From Phycisphaerae bacterium (lineage in GTDB: Bacteria; Planctomycetota; Phycisphaerae; JAJVII01): DNA of 64,000 nt. Both the position numbers and the translations under genes were made by a program. Positions within the stretch are counted from its first letter, which is position 1. Every line of letters starts with the position of its first letter. Under the pieces are notes generated by a model. It had not been told where the DNA came from. It saw nothing but the letters and a program-made list of their open reading frames with translations, and ran no database searches. The stretch spans positions 1 to 64,000 of the forward strand of contig JAJVII010000018.1 in assembly GCA_022072085.1 (NCBI GenBank). The letters run 5' to 3'. Positions 5,963-16,235 of the stretch are shown here, one piece after another.

Positions 5963-6185
5963 AGTTCAGACGAACTGCCGGCCGATAGGATAAAGGGCCG
6001 ATAGCCGCCTGGGGGACCGCGAAAAACGACCACGATTGGCTGAGCCGGACTGGACTCTTGGCGGATTTGTGAAATAATTCAGTAGCGTCGGGGTTGTCGG
6101 ATCGGACAGCGCCGAGCACCGATCCGTAGGTATATCGCGCCACGCGGTAGTAGTTCTTTCTCGGGGGTCGGGCAGGGGCTTGGTT
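5963..6185. other. 223-base intergenic region before the transaldolase gene
   Basis: No supported gene. A small AT-richer patch (TGTGAAATAATT near 6067-6078) is the only promoter-like stretch, but no convincing -35/-10 pair could be set. AGGGG at 6174-6178 is the Shine-Dalgarno sequence for the ATG at 6186. Confidence 0.5.
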
Positions 6186-7472
6186 ATGCACCTGGACCTG
6201 GCGGACCATCTGGCAGGCTTTTTGGCCGAGCTGGTCGCGGAAGTCTTTTCGCCCAGGTTTGAACAGCTCGCCGGCCACTTTCCGTCGCATCCGCGCTGGC
6301 GGCAGATGCGCGACGCCGGCACCGAACTATGGCTGGACACCGGCGACGTCCTGGAGATCGGACGCCGCTGGACCCGCGAATTCTCCGCCGTCACCACCAA
6401 CAACAGCCTGCTCAACCGCGAGGTCCAGAAGGGCCAGTACGATCGGCTGATCCCGCGCGCCGCCGCCCTTATCCGCGGACGGGCCGGCCGCCACGTCGGC
6501 GACCGCGAGCGCGAACTGCTGGTCACTTACGCGCTGAACGCCCGGCACGGGCTCAAGCTCGTCGAGGCCTTCGACGCCCGGGTGTCGGTCGAGGAGCACA
6601 CCGACCTGGCCGCCGACACGCCCGGCGCGGTCGAGTACGGCCGCAACATCTACGCCATCTGCCCGCAGCGATTCATCGTCAAGATCCCGCTGACGCCGCA
6701 GGGCCTGGTGGCGGCCCGGCGATGCCACGACGCCGGCGTGCCGGTCAACTTCACGCTCGGTTTCTCGGCGCGGCAGAACTATCTGATCGCACGGTTCGCC
6801 AAGCCGGACTTCTGCAACGTCTTCCTCGGGCGACTTAACTCCTTCGTCGCCGACAACAAGCTGGGCGACGGCGAGCAGGTTGGCGAGAAGGCGACGCTGG
6901 CCAGCCAGCGGGCCGTGCGCGGCCTGCGCGACTCGCATCGGCTGACGACGCGGCAGATCGCCGCTTCGATCCGCACGGGCCGGCAGGTGGCCGACCTCGC
7001 CGGCGTGGACGTCCACACCATACCCGTCGGGGCCTATGACCAGTTCCTCAAGCTCGACGTCGAGGTGGCCGACCGCACCGGCGACGACCCGCAGGTGAAG
7101 CTCGCCGACGGCGTGAAACCGTCGGACTGCGCCCTGGACACGCTATGGGAAGTTCCCGACAAACTGGTGACCGCCTGCGACGCGCTGGACCAGCGCGACC
7201 CGGCCGACCTGACCGGCGCTGACCTCGTGAAGGTGCTGGCCGATCACGGCGTCGGAAACCTGCTGATCGACTGGACCGACGAGCAGATCGAATTGTCGCG
7301 GCGGGAGGGGAAGATTCCGAAGATGAAGAACTGGGCGCCGCTGCTGGCCGATGGCACGGTCGGCCTGGACGCACTGATGAACCTGGCCGGGCTGAACGCC
7401 TTCACCGCCGACCAGGACGCGATGGACGAGAAGGTCCGCAGCGTGCTGGCGGGAATGAAGAGCGCGGGGTGA
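6186..7472 (+). CDS. tal: Transaldolase (long form)
   Basis: Transfers a dihydroxyacetone unit between sugar phosphates in the pentose phosphate pathway. Visible motifs are ELWLDTG with Asp51, VTTNNSLLN (69-77), DARVSVEEH (130-138), FIVKIPLT with the Schiff-base Lys166, and VPVNFTLGFSARQ. The ATG at 6186 has AGGGG seven bases upstream, which favours it over the TTG at 6180. At 428 residues it is longer than classical transaldolases (about 215-320), with extra sequence before the first strand and a C-terminal helical extension of about 100 residues (KPSDCALDTLWEVPDK onward). The family call is firm. Whether the substrate is the usual sedoheptulose 7-phosphate pair or a fructose 6-phosphate aldolase reaction is open. 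Confidence 0.88.
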   Translation: MHLDLADHLAGFLAELVAEVFSPRFEQLAGHFPSHPRWRQMRDAGTELWLDTGDVLEIGRRWTREFSAVTTNNSLLNREVQKGQYDRLIPRAAALIRGRAGRHVGDRERELLVTYALNARHGLKLVEAFDARVSVEEHTDLAADTPGAVEYGRNIYAICPQRFIVKIPLTPQGLVAARRCHDAGVPVNFTLGFSARQNYLIARFAKPDFCNVFLGRLNSFVADNKLGDGEQVGEKATLASQRAVRGLRDSHRLTTRQIAASIRTGRQVADLAGVDVHTIPVGAYDQFLKLDVEVADRTGDDPQVKLADGVKPSDCALDTLWEVPDKLVTACDALDQRDPADLTGADLVKVLADHGVGNLLIDWTDEQIELSRREGKIPKMKNWAPLLADGTVGLDALMNLAGLNAFTADQDAMDEKVRSVLAGMKSAG

Positions 7473-7499: not shown

Positions 7500-8519
7500 T
7501 TACTTCTTCGCATCCAGTTCGCTCAGTTGCACGACGCGGTTCTCGCGCGCGCTGATCTTCGCCGCGATGGCCGCCGCCAGGCTCACCCGCGCGTCGCGCA
7601 GCGAGGCCCGCGACGGCTTGCCTTCGGTGAGCACTTCCATCAGGTGGGCGACGTTGCCGCCGCCGGGCGGGGGGTCGGGAATCGGGACCTCCTGACCGTG
7701 CTCGAGCTTCTGCCCCTCTTCCTTCACGTACATCCGCGGCGTCTTCTGGCCGCTGTCGTACCACATGCTGCGGCGCAGGCCCTGGATGCCCACGCTCTCG
7801 CGGGCCATGCCCGTCGCCGCATCGGAAACCTGGAAGGTCGTCCCGTCGGCCAGCCGCCCGACCGACCACATGATCTCCTCCTCGTCGCTGCCGGGCTTGG
7901 TCGTGTCGGTGACGCAGTAGATTTCCTTGAACGGTTGGCCGGTCAGCCAGTAGACCAGGTCCAGCGCATGGCACATGTGATGGATCAGCCAGGTGCCGAA
8001 CTCCTCGGGGTGCATGAACACCTTGTATCGCATCCCGTTGGCCCAGAAGTCGCGCCCGCGCCACATCTGCACGGTGATCGTCTTGATCGGCCCGAAATAT
8101 CCCTCGTCGATCCACTGCTTGATGCCGTAGAACAGAGGCGCGTGCCGCAGGGAGTAGTTGACGATATTCACCAGCCCGCGGCTCTCGACGGCCTCGATCA
8201 TCTCGTCGGCCTCTTGGAGCGTCATTGCGATGGGCTTCTCGATGAGCATCGGCAGGCCCGCCCGGGCGCCGGCCATCACCTGCTCGTAGTGGGCGAAGCT
8301 GGTGCTCATGACGGCCAGGAAGTCGAGGTCCCAGTTCACCAGTTCGTTCACGTCGTGGGTGAGTTGGCTGATGCCGAACTGGTCGCGGGCGGTGTCCAGC
8401 CGCCCCTGGCTGCGGTTGCAGACCGCGACGATGTCGGCCTTGTCGGCGTAGAACCGCCTGATGCGTTTGGTCAGGTCCTGCCCCGCCCACCCGAACCCGC
8501 ACACGCCGCCCTTGAGCAT
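7500..8519 (-). CDS. Gfo/Idh/MocA family oxidoreductase
   Basis: NAD(P)-dependent sugar or cyclitol dehydrogenase-like protein of 339 residues. The N-terminal Rossmann fold starts MLKGGVCGFGWAG, which fixes the start at 8519 rather than the longer frame to 8567. The family EKP motif is present (LIEKPIAMT) and a C-terminal beta-sheet substrate domain follows (MWRGRDFWANG, then HHMCHALDLVYWLTG). Proteins of this family in Planctomycetota are abundant and mostly unassigned, so the substrate is unknown. It has no signal peptide and is transcribed away from the cobalamin-fold gene at 9095 across a 575-base gap. Confidence 0.9.
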   Translation of the reverse strand: MLKGGVCGFGWAGQDLTKRIRRFYADKADIVAVCNRSQGRLDTARDQFGISQLTHDVNELVNWDLDFLAVMSTSFAHYEQVMAGARAGLPMLIEKPIAMTLQEADEMIEAVESRGLVNIVNYSLRHAPLFYGIKQWIDEGYFGPIKTITVQMWRGRDFWANGMRYKVFMHPEEFGTWLIHHMCHALDLVYWLTGQPFKEIYCVTDTTKPGSDEEEIMWSVGRLADGTTFQVSDAATGMARESVGIQGLRRSMWYDSGQKTPRMYVKEEGQKLEHGQEVPIPDPPPGGGNVAHLMEVLTEGKPSRASLRDARVSLAAAIAAKISARENRVVQLSELDAKK

Positions 8520-8650
8520 GATGATCTCCTCGCCAGTGTCAGTGTCGAACTCCCGGGAGGGCCGCATTGTAGTCCCCTCCGCCGGTTAACGCGAGAGGGC
8601 TTCCAGGCGTCCCACCTAACCGAAATCCCGCCGGACGCCGGCCGACTGCG

Positions 8651-8803: not shown

Positions 8804-9094
8804 AGCAGGCCTATGATTTTTTTGCCTATTTTAACGCGCGGTGGGTGTGCGCTGATACGGCTGTAAAATACGCATTTCACAAACTTTACGCCCTACGACC
8901 TCTGACCACCCAGACCCGCATGTCAATCTGGACAAGATAAAACGTTAAAATGGGTAAAGAATTTTCAGGAGCCCTGTCGATACACCAGTGTCAAAACCGA
9001 ATCACCCGCGGGCCTGGGACCGGGCCCGCCCAAACAGACAAGTCGCCACGGATGGCAGGAACGGACCCGCACCATTACTAAGGGAGTTGCCCCG

Positions 9095-9835
9095 ATGGCC
9101 GACGCCTCTCAGTTCTACCAGCCGTACCTCGCCGCCCTGCTCGACGCCGACCGTGCCGAGGCACGCACCGTGATGGCCCAGGCCGTCGACGCCGCCGACC
9201 GCGTCGAGGACGTTTACGACACGCTGCTTTGGCCGACCATCGAGCGGCTCGACCACCAGCTCCGCATCGAGGCCATCAACCGGGCGACGCACGAGCTGGC
9301 CGTCCGCATCCATCGTCAGGTCTGCGACCAGGTGGCCGCCCACCTGCCGCTGATGGGCGCCCACGGCAAGAAGGTCATCCTCACCTGCGGCGACGGCGAG
9401 CCGGAAGAACTGGCAGGCCAGCTCGTGGCCGACCGCTTCGAGGCCGACGGCTGGGAGGTCTACTTCCTCGGCGGCGGCGTGCCCAACGACGAACTGATGC
9501 AACTGGTCGGCCAGGTCCGCCCGCAGACGCTGGTGGTTTTCGCGTCGCGGCCGAGCGAACTGCCGCAGGTGCGTCACCTCATCGACACCATCCGCTCGAT
9601 CAACGCCTGCCCGGGCATGAACGTGCTGGTCGGCGGCGGCGTTTTCAACCGGGCCGACGGGCTGGCCGAGGAAATCGGCGCCGACCTGTTCGCCCCGACG
9701 ATCCGCGGCGTGCTGGAGATCGCAATGAACGCCGAGCCCAAGGAAGTCGTCGCCCCCAGCACCAAGAAGCGCCGCCGTCGCCGCCGCAGCCCCTACCTCG
9801 CCCAGACCGAGCAGCGCCAGCAGAAAGTCGCCTGA
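9095..9835 (+). CDS. Cobalamin-binding-fold protein lacking the axial histidine
   Basis: 246 residues: an N-terminal helical bundle (about 8-85) like the cap of methionine synthase or CarH, a Rossmann-type B12 domain (about 88-210), and a very basic tail (KKRRRRRRS near 225-233). The B12 loop reads GDGEPEELAG, then GWEVYFLGGGVP and a GGGVFN loop. In cobalamin proteins this site has a cobalt-ligating His (DxHxxG, or ExH in CarH-like proteins); here the position is Glu. The W-x9-EH signature of the CarH cap is also absent. It stands alone, with no MerR DNA-binding or catalytic domain. It may be a degenerate or differently liganded corrinoid protein, a sensor, or an RNA/DNA-associated protein through its tail. 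The ATG has AGGGAG upstream. Confidence 0.75.
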   Translation: MADASQFYQPYLAALLDADRAEARTVMAQAVDAADRVEDVYDTLLWPTIERLDHQLRIEAINRATHELAVRIHRQVCDQVAAHLPLMGAHGKKVILTCGDGEPEELAGQLVADRFEADGWEVYFLGGGVPNDELMQLVGQVRPQTLVVFASRPSELPQVRHLIDTIRSINACPGMNVLVGGGVFNRADGLAEEIGADLFAPTIRGVLEIAMNAEPKEVVAPSTKKRRRRRRSPYLAQTEQRQQKVA

Positions 9836-10101: not shown

Positions 10102-11829
10102 TCACGGTTTGGGCGCGGGCTCAGCCGCCAGCGCGGTCAGCAGGCCCTTGAGTTCGTCGGACTCCTGCACGCCGGCGTTGACCAGTCGGCCGTCCCGGGC
10201 GATCACCAGCGCCAGCGGCAGGTCGGTCGCGCCGATGCCCCAGGCGACGGCCTGTTTCGACTCCGGTCCCTCGGGCTCGAACCGGTTGGGCCAGGGCAGC
10301 TTCACCTCCGCAAGGTAGTCGTCCAACTGGCGGCGGCTGGCGTCCAGGCTGATCCCCACCCAGCGCACGTTGTGGTCTTTGAAGCGGTCTTCCAGGGCGA
10401 TCAGCTTGGTCATGTCCGCGGTGGACCGCGTCGACCACGACGCCCAGAACAGCAGCACGACCACCTGCCCGCGCCACTGTGTCGGGTCCACTTCGCGGCC
10501 ATCGACGGCCTTGAACTTCCACTCGGCCAGGTCGAACGGCTTGCCGGCGGCGTCGTGGCGGCGGACCAGCCCCTTCAGCCGGGCCGTCGATTCGTCCTGC
10601 CCGTAGTCCTTGACGACCTGCTGCACGAAGTCGCGGGCCTTGGGGTAGCCGACCTTGTGGACCTCGCGCAGGGCGAGCTGGGTCATCAGCGCCGGCAGCG
10701 CCGCGTTCTTCGGGAAGTCGGACTGGAGGGCCTTCACGTAGGGCGTCGCCGCGTCCATGCCCTTGGCCCGATAGCTCTCCAGCGCCAGGTTGGCCAACAG
10801 GTCCGCCCGGGCGTCGCAGGTCTTGAACGTCGTCGCCAGCAGGTTCAGCCGATCGGCCAGGAGTTTCGCGTCCTCCTTCTCGAACGCGTCCCGAGCCAGT
10901 TGCGCCCAGACGGTCGCAACGGCCTCGTTGCCGGGGTAGTCCTTGGTCAGGTCTGCCATCAGCTTGGTCCCCTCCGCCGGCGCCGACAGCAGCCGCCGCA
11001 GCACCAGGGGCCCGACCACCTGCCGCGTGACCTCCTGCTCGGGATATTCCGCGAGCATCCGCTGGAGGACAGGCCAGGCGCGGTCCCAGCCGTCGCGGTG
11101 GCGGCTGTATTCGTCCACGGCGATTCTGCCGAGCAGGACGGCCGCCGCGTCGGGCTGTTTGGGATACGCGGCGATGAATTCATCCACGAGCTTGAGGCTC
11201 TTGGGGTAGCCGTTCAGTTGCACCTTCAGCAGCACGCCCTCGCCGTAGGCCTCGCGGCCGATGTCGAGGTCCTTGTACTTGCGGGCAAACTCAAGCCGGC
11301 GGTCCAGCTCCGGCTCCAGCCACGCAGGCGTCTTGTCCGGCGACGCCGCCGGTTCGGTCACCGCCTTCTTGCGCAGGTCCGCGTTGAGCAGGTGATACTC
11401 CGCGTGGGCTTTGAGTTCGCGCGACGCCGTCGCGTCGGCCAGCACCCCGGCTACGGCGCCGCGCAGGGCCTGCATCTCCACGTCGCCGCGAATCTGCGCC
11501 GACTCGAAGAGGATCTCCAGCTCGGCCCGCCGCACGTCCGCGCGGGCGGCCACTTCCGGGAACCGCTCGCGCAGGCTGCCCAGGGCTTTGGCGGCCTCCT
11601 TCAGCCGATAGTCGTAGGCGGTGAACGCCTGACTGTCGCGCGGATCGGGCATCCGCTCGTCGCCCATGCGGCGGATCAGGTTCAGCAGGTCCCGCGCCCC
11701 AGCCGGCACATCGGCCAGGTCGTCAGGCCGGCTCGTCGGCGCCGGCTGGGCCCACAGCGCCCCGGCGCCCGCCAGGCAGACGGCTGCCACCGCGGCGTAT
11801 CGGGCAATCCACTTCGCGTTCAAGGGCAT
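10102..11829 (-). CDS. Secreted TPR-like protein with a C-terminal thioredoxin-fold domain lacking both cysteines
   Basis: About 575 residues: signal peptide (WIARYAAVAAVCLAG...ALWAQ), a long alpha-helical, TPR-like region to about residue 430, and a C-terminal TlpA/AhpC-type thioredoxin fold (about 445-570). The redox loop that would read WCxxC is WASWSTRS, with Ser466 and Ser469 where both cysteines should be, so thiol-disulfide chemistry is unlikely. The start is uncertain: GGAGG (11831-11835) is only one base before the ATG at 11829 but ideally spaced for the in-frame TTG at 11823, which keeps the same signal peptide. The unknown secreted protein gene upstream ends 63 bases before this start, so the two may form an operon. 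Function is unknown; it may be a scaffold or chaperone-like envelope protein. Confidence 0.72.
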   Translation of the reverse strand: MPLNAKWIARYAAVAAVCLAGAGALWAQPAPTSRPDDLADVPAGARDLLNLIRRMGDERMPDPRDSQAFTAYDYRLKEAAKALGSLRERFPEVAARADVRRAELEILFESAQIRGDVEMQALRGAVAGVLADATASRELKAHAEYHLLNADLRKKAVTEPAASPDKTPAWLEPELDRRLEFARKYKDLDIGREAYGEGVLLKVQLNGYPKSLKLVDEFIAAYPKQPDAAAVLLGRIAVDEYSRHRDGWDRAWPVLQRMLAEYPEQEVTRQVVGPLVLRRLLSAPAEGTKLMADLTKDYPGNEAVATVWAQLARDAFEKEDAKLLADRLNLLATTFKTCDARADLLANLALESYRAKGMDAATPYVKALQSDFPKNAALPALMTQLALREVHKVGYPKARDFVQQVVKDYGQDESTARLKGLVRRHDAAGKPFDLAEWKFKAVDGREVDPTQWRGQVVVLLFWASWSTRSTADMTKLIALEDRFKDHNVRWVGISLDASRRQLDDYLAEVKLPWPNRFEPEGPESKQAVAWGIGATDLPLALVIARDGRLVNAGVQESDELKGLLTALAAEPAPKP

Positions 11830-11892
11830 TCCTCCACGGGGCAACCCCCGGTCACTCCTGCACTGTGGCCCGGATCGGAAAACGGGTCAAGG

Positions 11893-14308: not shown

Positions 14309-15370
14309 TCACGCTTTGGGGCAGTGCTTCTCGATCGCCCGGGCCAGGTCGTCGCGGAAATCGGTCGCGGCGGCGCGGATGGCTGCCTCCCAGTCGCCGC
14401 CGAACCGGCTCTTGTAAGGCTCGCGGTCGAACGCATAGAGGATCGAACGCGAGGCGTTGACGATCCCGCCGGTCCCGTCGGCGCGGAAGCTGGCCATGCA
14501 GTCGTCCGCCGACGCCCCCTGGGCCCCGTAGCCGGGCACGAGGAAGATGCAGTGCGGCATCTTCGCGCGCAGCTCGCGGGCCTGTTGCGGCCAGGTCGCC
14601 CCGACCACCGCGCCCAGCAGGCTGTCGCCGCACGATCCCACCCGACCCGGCGCCGACGCCCAGCCCTCGACCAGCCCGGCCAGGTGCTCGTAGAGCTTCA
14701 CACCGCCGGCGTCGGCGAAGTCCTGCAACTGCCCAGCCGACTTGTTGCTCGTCCGCACCAGCGCGAAGATGCCCTTGCCCAGTTCGGCCGCCAACGAGAG
14801 GAACGGCTCGACGCCGTCGATGCCGAGGTAGGGGTTGACGGTGATCGCGTCGGGGGCCGCCCGGTCCAACTCGGCCGATATCTCCGGGCCCATGCCTGGG
14901 CGCTGCGACAGCTCCGGGTCGCCGCCCAGCCGGGCGTCGCCGGTGACGCGGATGCGTTCGGCGTCGGCGGGCGTCTGGCCGGCCGGTTCGCTCAGGTGGG
15001 CAGCCGCATAGGCCTCGGCGGTGCTGCCGATGTCGCCGCGCTTCACGTCGCCGATGGTGACCAGCCCGAGCTGGCGGGCTTCGTGGATCAGCGAGTAGTA
15101 GGCGTCCACGCCCTCGCCGCGGTAGACCTCGAAATAGGCCGACTGGAACTTCACCGCCGCCGCAACCGGCGCGACGGCCTCCAGCACGGCGGCGCAGAAC
15201 TGAAAGATCGCGTCGAGCTGGTCGCTCGCCCGGCCGGTGGACTCGGCCTTTCGCCGCAGGTCCGCGGGCAGGCGCTCGAAGTTCGGATCGATCCCCACGA
15301 CGGTCGGCCCGCCGGCGCGGGCAACCGCCCGGGCCAGCCGGTCCGCGAAATGCTCCACGGTCTCATTCAC
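14309..15370 (-). CDS. pyrF: Orotidine 5'-phosphate decarboxylase, type 2, with an insertion
   Basis: Decarboxylates OMP to UMP, the last step of de novo pyrimidine synthesis. The GTG at 15370 is chosen because GAGGGAG lies about eight bases upstream and the family N-terminus (FADRLARAV...VVGIDPN) follows. Catalytic residues are in place: Lys73 in AVKFQ, then Asp108, Lys110 and Asp113 in DVKRGDIGST. The 353 residues exceed the usual 270-310. About 40 extra residues (roughly 128-168, SEPAGQTPADAER to ISAELDR) sit right after the catalytic loop, rich in Gly, Pro and Arg and unlike a core strand or helix. The fold resumes with DAITVNPYLG. The enzyme call is firm; the insert is unexplained. Confidence 0.93.
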   Translation of the reverse strand: MNETVEHFADRLARAVARAGGPTVVGIDPNFERLPADLRRKAESTGRASDQLDAIFQFCAAVLEAVAPVAAAVKFQSAYFEVYRGEGVDAYYSLIHEARQLGLVTIGDVKRGDIGSTAEAYAAAHLSEPAGQTPADAERIRVTGDARLGGDPELSQRPGMGPEISAELDRAAPDAITVNPYLGIDGVEPFLSLAAELGKGIFALVRTSNKSAGQLQDFADAGGVKLYEHLAGLVEGWASAPGRVGSCGDSLLGAVVGATWPQQARELRAKMPHCIFLVPGYGAQGASADDCMASFRADGTGGIVNASRSILYAFDREPYKSRFGGDWEAAIRAAATDFRDDLARAIEKHCPKA

Positions 15371-15437
15371 GCCGCACGCTCCCTCTGCAAGGCGCCGCGC
15401 CGGTCCGCGGCCGCAGCGCCGGTTCGATATTTCTCGC

Positions 15438-16235
15438 TCAGTGCCAGTGCCCGCCCTCGACGGGCGCACCCTCGGGCACGAAAGTCAGCCGCATCAGCGG
15501 CACGACGCTCTTCTGCGTCTTGCCGCTGACGCTCACCTCCCGTTCCTCCTCAGCCAGCTCGATCTTCTCCAGCCGGATCGGCCGATTGCCCCAGGCCGCG
15601 TCGCTGAAGGTCCGCTTCATCGGCTGGCCGTTGATCGCCTCGAAGAAGGCGACGCCCAGGTCGGTCATCATCCGCGTGGTGCGGTCCTGCTCCTTCGTCG
15701 ACGCCTCGGCGCGGCGGCGGAGGGCCTGGTCCAGGCGGTTGCGAATCTCCGAGAGCTGGTCGGTGATGAACTGCCGCGGCAGCGGAAGCGAGCCGACCTG
15801 GATCGACTCGATGCGCACATCCACCGCGTCGGGCGTCACGACCAGCCGCAGGTGCAGCGAGATCGGCCTGTCGCCGGTCTTCTCGTGCTTGCCCGCCAGG
15901 ACCAGCCGGTCCTTGAGGATGACGATCGCCGGGTCGCGCAGCCAACTCGGCAGGCCGCTGCCGGCCATCTTGGCCACCGCGTGCAGGTAGCCGTTGAACT
16001 GCTCCTCGGTGACCTCCACGACGAAGGGCTCGTCGGCTGGACCCATGCCGGCCTGGTCGAGGAACCTGCCCGTTTCGCTGACCAGGTTGTTGGCGAAGTT
16101 GTTCAACTGCTCGTCGCTGTAGTGTCGCGGCTGGTACCAGCCGGGCGTGCGCAGCACCAGCGCCGCCAGCACGACCACGACGGTGAGGATCGCTAGGAGG
16201 ATGGAGTAGATCAGGATGCGGATGACTTTTCGCAC
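15438..16235 (-). CDS. Membrane-anchored protein of unknown function
   Basis: 265 residues from a GTG at 16235 (protein starts RKVIRILIYSILLAIL). The upstream open frame shadows nnrD. Residues about 5-27 form one transmembrane helix, which with the basic N-terminus predicts an N-in protein with a soluble domain of about 235 residues outside the cytoplasmic membrane. That domain has amphipathic helices (LVSETGRFLDQAG, TDQLSEIRNRLDQAL) and beta segments (PISLHLRLVVTPDAVDVRI). No family is recognised. It lies 67 bases upstream of pyrF and diverges from nnrD. Confidence 0.7.
   Translation of the reverse strand: MRKVIRILIYSILLAILTVVVVLAALVLRTPGWYQPRHYSDEQLNNFANNLVSETGRFLDQAGMGPADEPFVVEVTEEQFNGYLHAVAKMAGSGLPSWLRDPAIVILKDRLVLAGKHEKTGDRPISLHLRLVVTPDAVDVRIESIQVGSLPLPRQFITDQLSEIRNRLDQALRRRAEASTKEQDRTTRMMTDLGVAFFEAINGQPMKRTFSDAAWGNRPIRLEKIELAEEEREVSVSGKTQKSVVPLMRLTFVPEGAPVEGGHWH

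Follow-up and report, generated by a model that had tools for sequence, protein, structure and literature searches.

A class-wide family of stand-alone B12-fold proteins in Phycisphaerae that has largely lost the axial histidine

The class Phycisphaerae has a previously undescribed, class-wide family of proteins with the fold of B12 sensors. Judged by their residues, these proteins have lost the chemistry for base-off/His-on cobalamin, namely the axial His, the tail-base Ser, and the adenosyl-stacking Trp. The family was recognized from P0001, a protein encoded in a window of 64,000 nucleotides (the whole stretch of DNA that was analysed) from a Phycisphaerae bacterium, and the replacement of His by Glu is not peculiar to this protein. 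No description of the family was found in the open-licence papers searched.

Results

Gene and predicted fold

The open reading frame of P0001 is real. GGGAG is found at 9082-9086, 8 nt 5' of the ATG. The gene and the N-terminal domain of its product are:

9095..9835, plus strand: coding sequence of the stand-alone His-less B12-fold protein P0001, 246 aa (open reading frame, Pfam, AF2)
9104..9337, plus strand: four-helix cap domain, residues 4-81 (AF2 secondary structure)

The original prediction was of a stand-alone cobalamin fold with a well-kept Rossmann core and glycine loops, and both points are borne out. The Pfam B12-binding family PF02310 matches above its cut-off (2.7e-9; 37.3 bits against a gathering score of 32.1). 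PF02607 (B12-binding_2) falls below its gathering score in P0001 (19.7 bits against 23), and it matches 80 of 82 family members at E<=0.001. The AF2 model, built from an 82-sequence alignment, has a mean pLDDT of 93.3, cap helices at residues 4-16, 20-33, 37-57, and 63-81, and a CarH-like fold. The best Foldseek matches in the PDB are the B12 domain of CtMerR and the photocobilins, followed by CarH and AerR.

P0001 lacks the additional domains of its relatives. A Pfam scan of the 246 aa found no HTH, and the AF2 cap begins at residue 4. Only about 35 residues, mostly basic tail, lie C-terminal to the Rossmann domain, and the C-terminal globin-like bilin domain is absent. The NCBIfam model for CarH gives 35.8 bits against a cut-off of 400, and P0001 is far below all of the NCBIfam corrinoid-protein cut-offs (26.5 against 370 bits, for example). 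The host genome encodes just one more clear relative, a corrinoid-type protein with 22% identity and a normal GDLHDIG motif.

Distribution of the family

The family is present in 333 of 397 genomes of the class (E<=1e-30) and in 246 of 283 good genomes, nearly always as a single copy. The search began with 61 related genomes and was extended to 294 from the phylum and finally to 397 from the class. Typical matches within the class are 1e-65 to 1e-113, compared with about 1e-43 for the best one outside it, and the phylum sample outside Phycisphaerae gave no match of comparable strength. Named relatives are MAGs of Phycisphaerae, Phycisphaerales, and Sedimentisphaerales, some of them filed only as Planctomycetota or planctomycetes. 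A tblastn search of plasmids found remote relatives only.

Residues were counted in 133 non-redundant members and in 19 outgroup or PDB sequences. The outgroup is made up of unassigned proteins and of B12 domains joined to histidine kinases or an HTH, and all of these have the axial His. The members are mostly from MAGs, with start codons set by rule, and the census leans to typical members because they were partly chosen by sequence pattern. Forty extra loci were added against this lean, and 33 of them are true members.

Loss of cobalamin-binding residues

Three sites carry signatures of cobalamin binding in the relatives:

9386..9421, plus strand: beta1-alpha1 loop, residues 98-109, the former cobalt-ligand loop, with E102, E104, E105, and Q109
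9539..9541, plus strand: Phe149, where D/ExHx2G-x41-SxT/V has its DMB-contacting Ser (alignment, exact x41 spacing)
9260..9295, plus strand: site of the W-x9-EH AdoCbl signature, residues 56-67, reading L56 ... H66-E67

The loop was originally read as GDGEPEELAG with Glu in place of the cobalt-ligating His, and this reading stands. Glu104 (codon 9404-9406) occupies the axial column, and no alignment placed a nearby His at the site in P0001. Across the 133 members the column holds Glu in 108, Asp in 7, Gln in 6, His in 4, Ala in 3, Gly in 2, and Pro, Asn, and Ser in one each, while the outgroup and solved structures have His in 19 of 19. Absence of the axial His from 129/133 members against 0/19 outgroup sequences is beyond chance. 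The Glu variant is thus the usual one (81%), and it is not fixed. For this reason Glu104 is not taken as a new cobalt ligand; the proposal of Glu as a replacement ligand is weakened by a column that also tolerates D, Q, A, G, P, N, S, and H, and a conserved Glu as direct cobalt ligand was rejected. Among the acids of the loop, E102 is conserved (114/133), and E105, directly after the axial position, even more so (129/133).

The second loss, equally telling, goes beyond the original prediction. The published motif is D/ExHx2G/Px41SxT/Vx22-27GG, and its Ser corresponds to residue 149 (PMC9304148). In CobDH the Ser of the SxT/V motif hydrogen-bonds the DMB base (PMC3727330). Ser is present in 17 of 19 outgroup sequences and in none of the 133 members, which have Phe (82), Tyr (44), Val (5), Cys (1), or His (1), so that F, Y, or H accounts for 127.

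The cap is also altered. It was predicted to lack W-x9-EH, which is correct for P0001 (L56-x9-H66-E67). In the family E66 and H67 occur together in 78/133 members; P0001 is more degenerate at this pair than its family. Four AdoCbl light signatures, GxxW, EH, GxxH, and GxxxP, are described for light-responsive CBDs (PMC11796333). Besides the EH pair, the members have GxxW in 0/133 (18/19 in the outgroup), GxxH in 0/133, and GxxxP in 106/133. GxxxP is the only one of the four in P0001.

The few His-containing members are restricted to one small lineage and one stray sequence. In both the FastTree and the IQ-TREE tree the family forms a single clade (0.83; UFBoot 87). The f6 lineage, whose three members keep His, branches first as sister to all other members, a weak split (0.28; 45). 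The f6 members already have Tyr or Phe at 149, which suggests, with weak support, that Ser disappeared ahead of His. The stray sequence, L202, sits well within the tree, and its His looks like a reversal. L186 (G298:C16; family f19) is a divergent second copy with a LEELA loop and no His, possibly a product of duplication and further drift. As a separate matter, a DNA pattern for the HEL site variant was far too unspecific to be used; its matches do include f6 family genes.

Conservation of the pocket

The family has residues of its own around the former ligand site:

9305..9316, plus strand: R71 and R74, family-specific cap arginines, residues 71-74
9470..9493, plus strand: GGGVPNDE loop, residues 126-133, with GxxxP kept and D132 family-specific
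9635..9652, plus strand: GGVFNR loop, residues 181-186, with R186 invariant in the family

R71, R74, D132, R160, R186, and E193 are near-invariant in the family and absent or rare in the outgroup. R71 and R74 are both present in 132/133 members and 0/19 outgroup sequences. On the helix that also carries residue 67 they take its i+4 and i+7 positions, one and two turns past the E-H pair, and so presumably point into the former ligand cavity. The ligand-face loops have conservation values of 0.70, 0.81, 0.60, and 0.85, compared with an overall mean of 0.59 and with 0.53-0.69 on the opposite face; the average value of 0.60 belongs to the beta3-alpha3 loop with aromatic residue 149. Conservation thus peaks in two of the four loops at the strand ends (0.81 and 0.85), where relatives bind the corrin, and this argues for a site that is constrained and altered, a pocket that looks retuned rather than decayed. 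The changed ligand that was originally proposed is therefore well supported: the axial His and the DMB-contacting Ser are gone class-wide, and most ligand-face loops exceed the rest of the protein in conservation.

Basic tail

The basic tail is a feature of the family:

9764..9787, plus strand: basic tail KKRRRRRR, residues 224-231

The six Arg do not end the protein, as had been stated; they are residues 226-231 and are followed by 15 more residues. At least five K/R in a stretch of eight are found within the last 60 residues of 107/110 members and 56/776 neighbouring ORFs, and a full 8/8 stretch in 54/110 and 0/776, respectively. There are two main forms of the tail, PKKRRRRRRPPLL and GRRRKRKK, and in some members it is short or weakly basic.

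Upstream motif

Operator-like sites precede the gene:

8822..8836, plus strand: operator-like site TTGCCTATTTTAACG (-273)
8921..8935, minus strand: weaker operator-like site TTGTCCAGATTGACA (-174)
8943..8957, minus strand: operator-like site TTACCCATTTTAACG (-152)

The strongest similarity between the leaders of P0001 and its closest relative (L034) is a block around -150, the 15-bp motif TTRYCYAWWTTAACA. The second and third sites are 22 bp apart, and an identical 22-bp pair occurs in that relative. The motif, at up to two mismatches to TTRCCYATWTTAACA, is found in 57/108 family upstream regions (at least two copies in 30/108), in 5/577 other genes, and in 0.55/108 shuffles; the pattern was derived from the family regions, so its presence there is circular and its absence elsewhere is not. 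After refinement, operator-like sites number 196 and are spread over 75/108 regions, where shuffles yield about 10 sites; the motif is absent from about half of the family. The sites are often laid out as an inverted pair with a separation of 55-56 bp, or on one strand as pairs separated by 18 or 22 bp.

The motif is specific to the gene in several genomes. The 5.49-Mb host genome has two copies of the exact degenerate pattern, both upstream of P0001 (8822-8836 and 8943-8957), and four copies when one mismatch is allowed. Several other genomes likewise have their sole copy upstream of the family gene. A regulon search with the motif found matches beyond the family gene near unrelated genes, and no regulon is claimed for that reason. 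Of the two host copies with one mismatch, one (L285; G000:C17:55643-55657) precedes by 70 bp an ORF resembling, by eye, a CpaF/TadA pilus ATPase, and it may be there by chance. Autoregulation through the putative operator is the simplest guess. From the K/R-rich tail and this dedicated upstream motif, it is plausible that P0001 is linked to nucleic acid.

Leader RNA

Part of the family has a hairpin with a GGA loop in the leader, of which P0001 has a weak version:

9045..9056, plus strand: leader hairpin GCC-ACGGAT-GGC, with GGA loop and 3-bp stem

This hairpin is not in the minimum-energy fold of the P0001 leader. The typical form is GGGC-AGGAG-GCCC, as in L037:4708-4802 and 27 similar leaders. 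Among the closer set, 44/80 leaders have a GGA-loop hairpin with a stem of at least 3 bp (background 7/624) and 36/80 one with at least 4 bp (background 3/624); the more distant, diverse set has 3/33. An adjoining 8-bp helix shares its 5' strand with the hairpin and covaries, with 12 two-sided changes against 3.1 in shuffles (0/500). Single folds of several leaders pair the Shine-Dalgarno region with an upstream CTCC. Neither the window nor the loci of three relatives matched any Rfam family.

CsrA binds GGA motifs (PMC4894983) and is encoded in 54 of the 61 relatives, including the host. The hairpin is a candidate CsrA-type or autoregulatory leader. Six genomes of the f11 lineage (G011, G020, G029, G043, G050, and G057) have neither CsrA nor the B12-fold family, and the two may have been lost together there. 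The f5 and f2 genomes are without the B12-fold family only and have CsrA.

Genomic context

P0001 stands alone between two minus-strand genes:

7500-8567, minus strand: Gfo/Idh/MocA oxidoreductase, upstream
10102-11844, minus strand: thioredoxin-domain protein, downstream
6180-7472, plus strand: transaldolase-type gene of the flanking region, apparently ordinary
14309-15469, minus strand: OMP-decarboxylase-type gene of the flanking region, apparently ordinary

No conserved operon partner was found, and no methyltransferase is beside P0001. RNase R is upstream and divergent in 16/80 loci, and other lineages have HU-like, ATP synthase, ClpP/trigger factor, or proline synthesis genes. Because neighbours differ among lineages, no functional link is drawn from them. 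Elsewhere in the host genome there are two consecutive cobalamin riboswitches (G000:C51:30148-30727). Together with the GDLHDIG protein they indicate that the cell probably uses corrinoids.

Discussion

Interpretation

Shared ancestry with CarH/photocobilin-type B12 sensors is part of the best explanation of the family, which as a whole has a little less than an even chance of being right. A non-corrinoid function by itself is likely. The full picture, of a new ligand and a nucleic-acid-linked regulator, falls somewhat short of even. The kept cap-on-Rossmann architecture would contain a newly charged pocket (R71, R74, D132, R160, R186, E193, and E102/E105) that binds a different small molecule, probably polar or anionic, or that shuts by salt bridges. 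P0001 would act as a stand-alone regulator that contacts partners, and nucleic acid through the Arg-rich tail. Its expression may be tightly controlled, possibly by P0001 itself, via the tandem or inverted upstream motif. The most specific version, in which the B12-sensor fold was repurposed class-wide for another small molecule in an HTH-less protein with nucleic-acid contact by the Arg tail and control of its own gene through a tandem or inverted operator, has only a small chance of being correct in every part.

The closing of the pocket by salt bridges leads to another explanation, a pseudo-B12 domain without ligand in which Arg and acid pairs clamp the cap to the Rossmann domain permanently and the protein serves as a scaffold for interaction or oligomerization. 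The new conserved cap Arg and the Rossmann-face acids fit such salt bridges, and Phe or Tyr at 149 would occupy the tunnel of the tail base. Class II LitR functions without B12, and a scaffold role without ligand has been proposed for it (PMC9758184). However, conservation is greatest in the glycine-rich loops GGGVP and GG-FNR, which is usually a sign of a bound ligand and not of a plugged site, and the clamped domain is somewhat less likely than the best explanation. Retention of the fold, GxxxP, and the glycine loops could also mean that a corrinoid is still bound His-off, either base-on or base-off with water or a carboxylate below the cobalt, in a B12 or light sensor. The E-H pair found in many relatives, the His-off cobalamin sites of other enzyme families (PMC13331322), and the riboswitches and corrinoid-type protein of the host are consistent with this. 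It is nonetheless quite improbable, given that residue 149 is aromatic in 127/133 members, GxxW is missing from all 133, the axial column varies, and P0001 lacks the E-H pair as well. Loss of several signature residues might finally suggest a decaying relic without function. This is extremely improbable, and is refuted by the conservation of the family: its wide and nearly always single-copy occurrence in the class, its invariant family-specific residues, and its conserved dedicated upstream motif. The preferred reading remains a regulator that responds to something other than a corrinoid.

Significance

With cobalamin chemistry lost and the pocket strictly kept in nearly the whole class, the family is a natural ligand-switch experiment in a major sensor fold. 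The f6 lineage may preserve an intermediate state, with His kept and Ser already lost. Domain databases label the family as B12-binding against the evidence of its residues, so that hundreds of genomes are misleadingly labelled. The family gene belongs to the core of the class, and its specific upstream motif offers a way into its regulation.

Comparison with known systems

P0001 resembles class I CarH/LitR in its cap and Rossmann fold (Foldseek TMq 0.71-0.73 for CtMerR, 8jbs/8jbt, and 0.59-0.70 for TtCarH), in its GxxxP loop, and in the Glu preceding the axial position. Unlike these proteins it has no MerR DNA-binding domain, axial His, GxxW, or tail-base Ser, and it has a basic tail. Its best PDB sequence matches, at 2e-22, are the photocobilins (SasPcob 8j2w/8j2x and AbDPcob 8j2y). 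Stand-alone forms of photocobilin exist, and photocobilins are thought to work via protein-protein contact (PMC10979010). W-(10)x-EH, E/DxH, and a globin domain that binds bilin at the C terminus are all retained in photocobilins and all missing from P0001.

Other relatives are similar in layout. AerR of Rhodobacter capsulatus (7te2) is also a stand-alone B12-fold protein without its own HTH, and it is a regulator. P0001 matches it by profile (6.7e-6) and by fold; the relationship is remote, with 15% identity in the fold match. AerR is described as B12-binding (PMC9144470). The corrinoid methyl-carriers MtgC, MtbC, MtaC, and CobDH share the two-domain layout, and their NCBIfam models weakly match 64-82 of 82 members, but P0001 lacks their DxHxxG. 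Cobalamin proteins without a lower His do exist, among them radical-SAM enzymes, CFeSP, and QueG (PMC13331322). Class II LitR (PmlR/PplR) is a precedent for a relative of the B12 sensors that works without B12 (PMC9758184). It keeps the MerR HTH and the cap domain only, whereas P0001 keeps both subdomains and has no HTH.
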